A stretch of DNA of 64,000 nucleotides, from the NCBI GenBank assembly GCA_004138175.2, contig RYFE02000002.1, forward strand, positions 186,001 to 250,000. The letters are read 5' to 3'. Origin of the DNA: Chloroflexales bacterium ZM16-3. GTDB lineage: Bacteria > Chloroflexota > Chloroflexia > Chloroflexales > Chloroflexaceae. Both the position numbers and the translations under genes were made by a program. The number at the start of each line of letters is the position of its first letter. Within the stretch, counting starts at the first letter, position 1. Below are positions 55,538 to 61,985 of this stretch, piece after piece. Below the pieces are notes generated by a model. It searched no databases. It saw nothing but the letters and a program-made list of their open reading frames with translations, and was not told the DNA's origin.

Positions 55538-55614
55538 GATTGCAGACTGTAGATTGCAGATTGTAGATTGCCAGCGCGGCAATCTACAATCTGCAATCTG
55601 CAATCTACAATTGC
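55538..55614. repeat. Heptamer inverted array (GATTGCA type) between aapJ and aapQ
   Basis: Five units GATTGCA GACTGTA GATTGCA GATTGTA GATTGCC, then the complement CAATCTA CAATCTG. Same unit as the insert in ppc. It fills the gap between the two genes. Confidence 0.85.
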
Positions 55615-58062: not shown

Positions 58063-58121
58063 TTTTTGATTTTTGATTTTTAATTTTGGATTGCGCAATC
58101 CAAAATTAAAAATCAAAAATC
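58063..58121. repeat. Perfect 54-bp AT-rich palindrome between aapM and aapP
   Basis: Arms at 58068-58094 and 58095-58121 are exact complements. The arms have a 7-base rhythm (TTTTTGA TTTTTGA TTTTTAA TTTTGGA). It lies directly between two genes of one operon and would fold in the mRNA. Confidence 0.85.
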
Positions 58122-58998: not shown

Positions 58999-59039
58999 AT
59001 CACAAACGGGCGAAGGCTTTGCCTTCGCCCGTTTGTGAT
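58999..59039. terminator. Bidirectional terminator-like hairpin
   Basis: A 19-bp perfect stem (ATCACAAACGGGCGAAGGC and its complement) with loop TTT between the end of aapP and the convergent glycerate kinase stop. No long T run. Confidence 0.6.
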
Positions 59040-59044
59040 TCTGC

Positions 59045-60424
59045 TCACCAGGCGAAGAGGAAGGCCAGGTCGTTCACATTGGTGTCGGTGGGGCCGGGGC
59101 GCAGCAGGTCGCCAAGGGCGGCGAAGAAGGGGTAGGCGTCATTGCGGGCCAGGTGGGCGGCCGGGTCGAGGCCGCGGGCGCGGGCGCGGGCCAGGGTCTC
59201 GCCTGTCACCACAGCCCCCGCCGCGTCGGTCGGCCCATCGCCGCCGTCGGTGGCCAGGGTGATCAGGGCAACATCGGGCAGGCCAGCAAGCTCGCCCACG
59301 GCGGCCAGAGCCAGCTCCTGATTGCGCCCGCCGCGCCCGTCGCCGCGCAGAGTCACGGTGGTCTCCCCGCCGACAATGACGCAGGCCGGGCGCGGCAGGG
59401 GCCGCCCGGTTGCGGCCATCTCGCGGATGATCGCGCCGAGGAAGCGCCCGGCCTCGCGGGCCTCGCCCTGGAGGTAGGTGCTCAGCACCAGCGCACTGAG
59501 CCCGGCGGCGCGGGCGGCATGCGCGGCCGCCTCGGCGGCCTGGAGGTTGCTGCCCACCAGCAGCGTGCTCGCCCGCGCGAAGCAGGGGTCGTCGGGGCCG
59601 GGGGTCTCCTCCAGATCGCCGGATGCCCCACGCCGCAGGCGATCAACAATGGCCGAGGGGGCCGACTCGCGCAGCCCGTAGCGATCCAGCACCGCCAGGG
59701 CATCGGCGAAGCTGCTGGGGTCAGGCACCGTCGGGCCAGAGGCGATCACATCCAGGGGGCTACCGACCACATCGGAGAGCACCAGGGTGACGAGGTCGGC
59801 GGGATGAGCCATGCGCGCAAGTCCGCCGCCCTTAATTATGTCAAGATGCTTACGCAGCGCGTTAATCTCGTTGATGCTGGCCCCGCAGGCCAGGAGCTGC
59901 CCAGTGAGCGCCTGAATATCGGCCAGGCTCAGGCCAGGGGCGGGCAGGCTGAGCAGCGCCGAGCCACCGCCCGAGATCAGGGCGATCACCAGGTCGCCCG
60001 CGCGGGACTCGGCCAGCAAGTCGGCGATCCGCCGCGCCCCAGCCACGCTGCGCTCGTCGGGGACGGGGTGGCCGGCGGCAAGGATGTGATAAGACCCAGG
60101 ATGCGGGAGCAAAGCTCCCGCATCCTGGGTCTTATCACTCTTTATCACCATCACACCGCCCGAGAGCCGGTCGGCGATCACCTCGGCGGCGGCGGCGGCC
60201 ATAGGGCGGCCAGCCTTCCCGCAGCCCACCAGCAGTACCCGCGCGATCTGGGACAGGTCGTAGCGCCGCCCGCCAACAGTGAGCAGATCGCCCTCGCGGC
60301 GAAGGGCGGATCGCACGGCGGCGGCAGGCTCGACGGCGTCCAGGGCCGCAGACAAGATGGATGCCGCCGTCGATCCCCAGGGGGCCGTACGCAGGGTCGT
60401 GCTGAGCAGGCGTTCAGGGTTCAT
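59045..60424 (-). CDS. Glycerate 2-kinase (MOFRL family) with in-frame palindrome
   Basis: 459 aa class II glycerate kinase; phosphorylates D-glycerate at C2 with ATP. Family marks: VLLVGCGKAGRPMAAAAAEV, ALISGGGSALLSLPAPGLSL, ALRKHLDIIKGGGLARMAHP, VGSPLDVIASGPTVPDPSSF, VIVGGETTVTLRGDGRGGRN, LATDGGDGPTDAAGAVV. Between VMVIKS and ILAAGHPVPDERS lies DKTQDAGALLPHPGSYH, read from a 53-bp palindrome (60086-60138). The ATG at 60424 (MNPERLL) is chosen; it has GGAGGGAGCGCCT upstream. A longer start at 60487 would overlap the next gene. Confidence 0.93.
   Translation of the reverse strand: MNPERLLSTTLRTAPWGSTAASILSAALDAVEPAAAVRSALRREGDLLTVGGRRYDLSQIARVLLVGCGKAGRPMAAAAAEVIADRLSGGVMVIKSDKTQDAGALLPHPGSYHILAAGHPVPDERSVAGARRIADLLAESRAGDLVIALISGGGSALLSLPAPGLSLADIQALTGQLLACGASINEINALRKHLDIIKGGGLARMAHPADLVTLVLSDVVGSPLDVIASGPTVPDPSSFADALAVLDRYGLRESAPSAIVDRLRRGASGDLEETPGPDDPCFARASTLLVGSNLQAAEAAAHAARAAGLSALVLSTYLQGEAREAGRFLGAIIREMAATGRPLPRPACVIVGGETTVTLRGDGRGGRNQELALAAVGELAGLPDVALITLATDGGDGPTDAAGAVVTGETLARARARGLDPAAHLARNDAYPFFAALGDLLRPGPTDTNVNDLAFLFAW
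60086..60138. repeat. 25-bp-stem palindrome inside the glycerate kinase gene
   Basis: Arms at 60086-60110 and 60114-60138 are exact complements with loop AAA. The coding frame stays open through it. Confidence 0.85.
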
Positions 60425-60446
60425 AGGCGCTCCCTCCTTGTATAGC

Positions 60447-61985
60447 CTAACGCCGTTGCTGAGTGGCGGCACTTGAATGCTTGGCACCCGCTGTGCAGCC
60501 GCTCAACAGCACACTACAATCACGTGACGGTGTGCGAATAAAAGGGAGCCAGATGCGATAGATGTGATTTGGCGCTACCTGGGCCGGGGTGGGGGTACTC
60601 GTTGCGGTATAGGTTCGTGTCGCTGTGGCAGTCCTGGTCGCCGTGCTGGTCGGCGTGTTCATCGGCGTGTTCGTGGCCGTGGCGGTATCAGTCGGCGTGT
60701 TCGTCGGCGTGTTGGTGGCCGTGGCGGTATCGGTCGGCGTGTTCGTCGGCGTGTTGGTGGCCGTGGCGGTATCGGTCGGCGTGTTCGTCGCCGTGCTGGT
60801 TGGCGTGTTCGTCGGCGTGTTCGTCGAGATCGCAGTGTTCGTCGCCGTGCTCGGAGGGTTCCCCGATTCCGTCAGCGTACCGCCGGAGATAGTCGTCCTA
60901 TCACGCACCACCAGATAGCTGTAGATCTCATCGGAAGGTGCCATCCACAGCTCGTCCGTACCGCCGGGGCCGTAGGTGGCGTAGGCGTTGTTGAGCACTT
61001 TACCCAGGTTGCTCTCCTGGTTGCCATGGCTCAGCGTATTGAACCAGAAGTGCCGATTTGCGCTGGCATTCGCCGACATCCAGTTAAAGGTCGCTATAGC
61101 ACCGCTCGAACTCGCCTCGATACCTGTATCCCGTCCGATCTTGTCGATGGTCGAGTCCATGGCGATGGCCGTCTGCGCGCCGCTCGTGTAGTCGGTGCCA
61201 TCCACATTCATCAGCGGGTTCCCCTGCGACTCGTTAAAGAGCAGGGTGGTTGCCCCATCGCGCAGCGCATCAAATGGCGCGTCATAGGCGGCGTCGAAGC
61301 AGGGTGCCGCAAAGGCCAGCACCACATGATCCGGGTGGCTGCTCGCCGCCACTGCCTGCTCCACCACAGCGAGGCCATCGGTGATCTCCGCAGACGTCTG
61401 CCCGCCATAGCATGCGTGTGACCACGTATGGTCGCCGACGGCCCAGCCCTGGTTGATCAGCTCAAGCAGCCCTGGCTGATCGATGATCCAGCCGGGTTCC
61501 TCTCTGGTTTCCGAGACGATATTGCCGATCATAAACAGGGTGGCCCGCCAGCCCTTCGCGTTGATCTGGTCGATCTGCTTCTGAAGGTTGACATTATCGT
61601 CCATACCGTGTGACCAGGCCCAGGCTTTGTTGCCCTTCAGCGAGGCCTTGTTCACCGTGATCCCGGTGGGCGCGCTGGCGGCGCTGAAGGTAATCTCCGC
61701 CGTGCCGATCTGGTCGCTGGTGAAGATAAAGTCGCCGGTGGCTGAGTCGTAGCTGCTCGACAGCGCCGCAACACCATTAACCCTAGCAGAAGGGCTACTG
61801 ACTGTGCCGAGGTGAACAATATAGCTCAGATCGGTGTAGAACAGCGCCGGGAGCGCAGTCTGCTTAATGCTGAAGGTGTAGGTGTATGCAGTGCTGCTCT
61901 GAGCGTGGACAGGCCAGCCTACGAAGCCAAGGGCGAGCGCCATAGCGATGGTAAGCGTAGCTATTCCGCTCCGAAACCAATTCAT
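60447..61985 (-). CDS. Secreted polysaccharide-deacetylase-like protein with Thr/Pro repeat tail
   Basis: 512 aa. Signal peptide ending WPVHAQS, a small beta domain (~30-115), then a NodB-like domain: [34 protein letters not shown], and [12 protein letters not shown] (His-x3-His metal motif). Residues ~385-470 are a Thr-rich tail of [10 protein letters not shown]-type units. The tail ends [15 protein letters not shown], close to the 'YLPL' end motif of many Chloroflexi exported proteins. The catalytic Asp pair is MDDN rather than TFDDG, so activity is uncertain. The last codons approach the start of glycerate kinase. Confidence 0.82.
60655..60830. repeat. Tandem coding repeats in the deacetylase-like tail
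   Basis: Units of about 48 bp (with sub-units GTCGGCGTGTTCGTCGGCGT) code for [10 protein letters not shown]-type blocks on the minus strand. The apparent Val/Gly-rich open frame on the plus strand is a shadow. Confidence 0.75.

Follow-up and report, generated by a model that had tools for sequence, protein, structure and literature searches.

A gene for a glycerate 2-kinase-like enzyme in Chloroflexales bacterium ZM16-3 contains a perfect DNA hairpin within its coding sequence, in a loop of the protein that tolerates change, and this hairpin has probably been kept perfect, and its own loop inverted, by template switching of the DNA polymerase. We infer this mechanism from comparison of the sequence with that of a sister species, Oscillochloris sp. 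ZM17-4. The features concerned are as follows, numbered within the window, that is, the whole stretch of 64,000 nucleotides that was analysed:

59045..60424, minus strand: intact glycerate 2-kinase-like gene (DUF4147 and MOFRL), 459 amino acids from the ATG at 60424
60086..60110, no strand assigned: left arm of the palindrome, the second arm in the reading direction of the gene, encoding LPHPGSYH
60111..60113, no strand assigned: 3-base loop of the palindrome, AAA on the plus strand and TTT on the coding strand (in the sister, TTT on the plus strand)
60114..60138, no strand assigned: right arm of the palindrome, the first arm in the reading direction of the gene, encoding DKTQDAG and part of A
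58999..59039, no strand assigned: second perfect hairpin, with 19-bp arms and the 3-base loop TTT, 5 bases past the end of the glycerate kinase open reading frame

The palindrome at 60086–60138 is 53 bases long, with all arm bases complementary (25/25) around a 3-base loop, as the initial annotation had described it. That annotation was also right in placing the palindrome in frame within a glycerate kinase, and in finding no 7-base rhythm in it. The nearest palindromes of the 7-base kind in the window, at 55551–55599 and 58068–58121, lie by simple gene calls at a gene edge and between genes, respectively, while in other parts of the contig recN and mnmG have such palindromes in frame. The glycerate kinase frame is listed from a GTG at 60487 (59045–60487), and the ATG at 60424 was used for analysis; it is intact across the palindrome and matches DUF4147 and MOFRL at near full length. 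Two PDB sequences match the protein, one of them titled putative glycerate kinase, as do two NCBIfam glycerate 2-kinase models, neither of which reaches its curated cut-off. At about 60629–60850 in the window, there is a near-tandem coding repeat in the C-terminal part of a neighbouring 512-amino acid open reading frame.

The palindrome is a derived, in-frame feature, as is seen from its presence in 2 of 54 distinct homologues (the usable sequences from loci L003–L073). These two, the present gene and that of Oscillochloris sp. ZM17-4, reach a loop palindrome score of 25, the next best being 9 (L010 and L028). In L028, from one other genus, the score corresponds to a weak, imperfect palindrome in the same loop, and in L010 to one in or near the same stretch. 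The motif used to cut out the loop misplaced it in L029 and L031, in the palindrome scoring and in the loop-length count alike; scans of these two whole loci list no perfect hairpin whose arms reach 11 bases. Of 30 loci scanned over their whole length, only the present gene and its sister have a perfect hairpin at this site. No homologue examined has the segment encoded by non-palindromic DNA; the one other gene that has it is that of the sister, where it is itself a perfect palindrome.

Comparison with the glycerate kinases of relatives bears out the restriction of the palindrome to this pair of genes, but not the earlier claim that it adds about 17 residues. Here, 21 residues separate the strand VMVIK from AGHPVPD, as compared with 14–40 (median 16) in 49 of 51 homologues, L029 and L031 being left out; in nine of the 49 this loop is as long or longer. 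A profile of the 52 other homologues gives a net insertion of 4 residues in both palindromic proteins. An insertion of 17 residues is ruled out by the profile (+4) and by the loop lengths (+5 over the median). Since loop length varies from 14 to 40 residues among homologues, the palindrome fills a naturally variable loop. In the AlphaFold model, the palindrome residues are at about 96–113, mostly between the strands at 87–95 and 112–117, and pLDDT falls below 50 at residues 101–109. The model thus suggests that the encoded residues form a floppy, disordered surface loop, which would be why the protein tolerates them.

The history of the arms can be read from the sister gene, in which reciprocal mapping places a palindrome at the same site, again with 25/25 bases paired. 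Over the 53 bases the two genes differ at seven positions, comprising two compensatory arm pairs and the three loop bases, and no pair is broken. The loop is exactly inverted between the sisters (AAA versus TTT), resulting in a Leu/Lys swap in the protein, and each paired change alters an amino acid in arm 1 while being silent in arm 2. Under a simple uniform model that ignores codon structure, the probability of four arm changes forming two complete pairs with the right bases is about 1.4e-4, with the loop not counted. Outside the palindrome, 135 differences are found over about 1173 aligned positions. As 92 of these are at third codon positions, purifying selection appears to act on the gene outside the palindrome.

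Clues as to which arm is ancestral conflict, with codon usage slightly favouring arm 1 as the native one, the paired changes being missense in that arm and silent in the other, and the linkers of Chloroflexus resembling arm 2 by eye. Only these two sequences carry the palindrome, and there was among the homologues no close outgroup in an intermediate state by which a change could be placed on a branch. Some assemblers handle palindromes poorly, and an error of assembly behind the difference in loop orientation is conceivable. However, that the palindrome as a whole is an artefact of assembly is highly improbable, as it is present in the assemblies of two species, with arms that are different yet perfectly paired, and with open reading frames in both.

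Template switching between the arms of an inverted repeat yields paired change together with exact loop inversion, and it is on this basis that we read the history of the arms. On the simplest view, the common ancestor of ZM16-3 and Oscillochloris sp. ZM17-4 would already have had a perfect hairpin, which arose in, or was brought into, a disordered surface loop of the glycerate 2-kinase where length is tolerated; it may have arisen in situ. While the DNA is being replicated, the nascent strand would switch onto the opposite arm, copy it and return. A single event of this kind would rewrite one arm to match the other as its exact complement, giving the appearance of paired substitutions, and could also leave the loop inverted. 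Neither arm copying nor loop inversion alters length, and so the reading frame would be kept. What is found here is what is looked for in a coding inverted repeat maintained by template switching: perfect arms with a short spacer in a coding sequence, arms that change together and an exactly inverted spacer.

With two paired changes and one loop inversion at the site, the pairs alone leave room for selection on pairing. The hairpin might then be held as an RNA or DNA signal, namely an intragenic terminator, an attenuator or an mRNA stabiliser. The predicted RNA fold of 60086–60138 is indeed very stable (z = -10.5 on one strand and -11.05 on the other), a terminator scan scored a terminator-like pattern there on the strand opposite the gene, and most hairpins in the genome are between genes or at gene edges. 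However, on the minus strand, which is the gene direction, the scan flagged no G+C-rich stem with a T-run behind it, as an intrinsic terminator would have. Additionally, 52 of the 54 homologues do without the palindrome, and selection on pairing alone does not account for an exactly inverted loop. We therefore find a signal role quite improbable for this hairpin. The second hairpin, at 58999–59039, appears to be of similar build and would sit where a terminator is expected. The matching interval in the sister is much longer (about 1.6 kb), with no matching hairpin listed in it.

The initial annotation saw in the glycerate kinase palindrome a separate class of palindrome that enters genes in frame, and whose stem might recur in the genome. 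Such in-frame entry is familiar from the palindromic elements of Rickettsia, which are found in frame in protein genes and belong to a repeat family. A mobile palindromic element of that type, or a REP-like one, inserted in frame with its ends as the arms, would be an alternative origin. Two observations are in its favour: REPs occur within genes, with GTAG repeats reported in Chloroflexi, according to the available text of PMC3733652; and the present genome does have a repeat family of palindromes with 3-base loops that is found in frame in histidine kinases. To this extent the notion of a separate class holds. Its entry into the glycerate kinase is unproven, since a second copy of the stem is missing from its own genome at E <= 0.001. 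Across 40 further genomes of the family, the stem gives, apart from the orthologue in the sister, only matches of 15–36 bases. The best non-orthologue match among these genomes (E = 8e-4) is to another small palindrome, and short palindromes with a core similar to the stem are seen in some of them (L112, L114, L116). With no copy in its own genome and only matches of 15–36 bases in relatives, a repeat family containing the glycerate kinase palindrome is unsupported.

Inspection of the flanks by eye gives no target duplication on both sides of the palindrome, there being a short GTGATAA repeat just outside one arm only, and neither a GTAG nor a CGTC tag adjoins the stem. The net gain of 12–15 bases, rather than 53, also argues against insertion of such an element, which on the whole we consider unlikely. 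It could still account for the origin of the palindrome, with its upkeep being due to template switching.

The template switching that we favour can be set against the hairpins of the genome at large, which are abundant. The 355-kb home contig has 51 perfect hairpins with arms of at least 13 bases and a loop of up to 10, as compared with 0 and 1 in two first-order Markov sequences, which puts the palindrome at 60086–60138 well beyond what chance would give. In about 750 kb of the genome, 142 hairpins have arms of at least 12 bases. By gene calls made with a simple codon score, 91 of these are between called genes, 41 are at gene edges and 10 are inside open reading frames by at least 75 bases, although for several of the "interior" ones near frame starts, C1:281546 being one, the true start probably lies downstream of the hairpin. 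In 47 of the 142, arms of at least 18 bases are combined with loops of 3–5, and many of these have, by eye, a G+C-rich inner stem and A+T-rich ends. The glycerate kinase hairpin has this same build, but is inside a gene. The initial annotation, made from a single sequence, had missed this preference of hairpins for gene edges and intergenic DNA, as well as the co-variation of the arms and the inversion of the loop at 60086–60138.

In the sister genome, 90 of the 142 hairpins could be placed, and 26 are conserved above 68% identity. The loop is inverted in five of the 26 (as reciprocal pairs), the same in four, uninformative in seven (0–1 base) and changed otherwise in nine, with one dropped. 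The five with inverted loops, all of 3 bases, are C40:20686, C40:48344, C40:246086, C1:187721 and C1:281546, the glycerate kinase site being among them. C40:48344 and C1:281546 are only about 73% alike between the sisters, and their inverted loops possibly reflect replacement by a related hairpin. C1:307338 was dropped as an inverted loop, its match being another copy of a repeat family; its counterpart on the sister's C1 has the loop in the same orientation. Unpaired changes in the sister are seen in some conserved hairpins, such as C1:191315 (20/22 paired) and C1:38083 (18/20). In another genus, the loci L024 and L028 show a TAC/GTA loop inversion with identical arms.

The same spots were also compared for the presence of any hairpin in the sister, similar or not. 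Placement counted as strict when the contig pair was the same and the alignment on either side covered 150 bases or more; hairpins needed arms of at least 14 bases, and a 65% cut was used for calling them unrelated. On these terms 54 of 112 hairpin sites were placed, and the sister interval contains a hairpin at 28 of the 54 (7 similar, 21 unrelated). Of the gene ends that lack a hairpin here, 408 were tried and 150 placed, 33 of them with a hairpin in the sister; of 761 random positions tried, 401 were placed, 7 of them with a hairpin. The excess over gene ends is significant (Fisher p = 1e-4), with a control unmatched for the kind of gene end (convergent or not). A run with looser placement gave 34/60 hairpin sites (22 unrelated), 36/157 gene ends and 9/461 random positions.

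Such exchange is also seen within genes. A histidine kinase of this genome (G000) has an in-frame palindrome of the repeat family, with 18-bp arms and a 3-base loop, in the region of its HATPase domain (G000:C1:271859-271897, L180). The orthologue in the sister (G004), which is 88% identical, has at the same place an in-frame palindrome with the 7-base rhythm (G004:C1:327493-327583, between the L216 and L215 matches). In a second histidine kinase pair, 64% identical, it is the sister that carries the 3-base-loop family palindrome; the stretch in the present genome resembles the 7-base kind by eye and scores as no palindrome. The family in question, GAGGGTCTCAGGGAGGG, has differing 3-base loops, three full copies here and a further one in the sister (allowing up to 3 mismatches), and many single-arm matches. 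Its full copies are at:

G000:C1:271859, C41:40137 and C73:113087, copies of the GAGGGTCTCAGGGAGGG palindrome in this genome
G004:C1:301050, copy of the GAGGGTCTCAGGGAGGG palindrome in the sister

In-frame palindromes with the 7-base rhythm are present in the DNA repair gene recN (G000:C40:137428-137483), where the sister is without a counterpart, and in the tRNA-modification gene mnmG (G000:C40:260060-260104), where the sister has a worn form. A nested arrangement is found at G004:C95:340360-340421 (in L109), where a GTAGGGACGCAGCG unit and its mirror are at the centre of a GTAGGGGCGCAGCA palindrome. It looks as though palindromes insert into the centres of palindromes.

One tentative reading of these patterns, and one that we would not yet back, is that the gene ends of this lineage and a few floppy protein loops, that of the glycerate kinase among them, act as sockets in which unrelated perfect palindromes are swapped while the spot stays palindromic. 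If true, this would imply a process of exchange that targets hairpins and goes further than template switching of the ordinary sort. That unrelated palindromes take each other's place at the same spots is a less expected result than the template-switch site, and the dense hairpin set of this genus is a natural system in which to measure the rates at which hairpins are flipped, repaired and replaced. The glycerate kinase site itself is a clear bacterial case of an already known mutational process, and offers a clean bacterial example, in the gene of a working enzyme, in which the arms have changed in pairs and the loop is exactly inverted. It serves to illustrate that replication error, rather than selection, can give rise to seemingly compensatory evolution and to changes in a protein.

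Within a limited set of literature, we found no work joining template switching, loop inversion and a terminator, nor, beyond the yeast study PMC8604942, any paper joining spacer inversion, inverted repeats, template switching and bacteria. The glycerate kinase palindrome resembles intragenic REPs, as far as these are described in the available text of PMC3733652, and also the Rickettsia elements, in being a palindrome in a protein gene; it differs from both in that no second copy was found here. In the mitochondria of Nematomorpha, perfect inverted repeats of up to 284 bp are present in working protein genes, with both arms encoding conserved protein (PMC6649704, in the portion available). 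There, as here, a perfect repeat is coding, but the present case is of one variable loop with 25-bp arms.

In RNA genes, template switching creates and maintains hairpins, and the authors of PMC8794818, in the sections available, expected paired change with loop inversion to be the strongest support for it, while finding this combination extremely rare in rRNA (six cases in their Table 1, with no enrichment over simulation). The glycerate kinase site shares with these hairpins a paired substitution plus loop inversion, although it is in a protein gene and not an RNA gene.

The closest parallel is in yeast coding genes, where, in the available text of PMC8604942, template switching between the arms of inverted repeats homogenises the arms and inverts the spacer. 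Ten spacer inversions are reported there in coding sequences, with arms of 10–16 bp, and an AA/TT spacer in SPO75 switches between Lys and Leu. Our case differs from what is described there in being bacterial, in its 25-bp arms, in the comparison of species rather than strains, and in the absence of the palindrome from 52 of 54 homologues. It has in common with the yeast genes the homogenisation of arms and the exact inversion of the spacer, with an AAA/TTT switch between Lys and Leu here as against the AA/TT switch between the same residues in SPO75.
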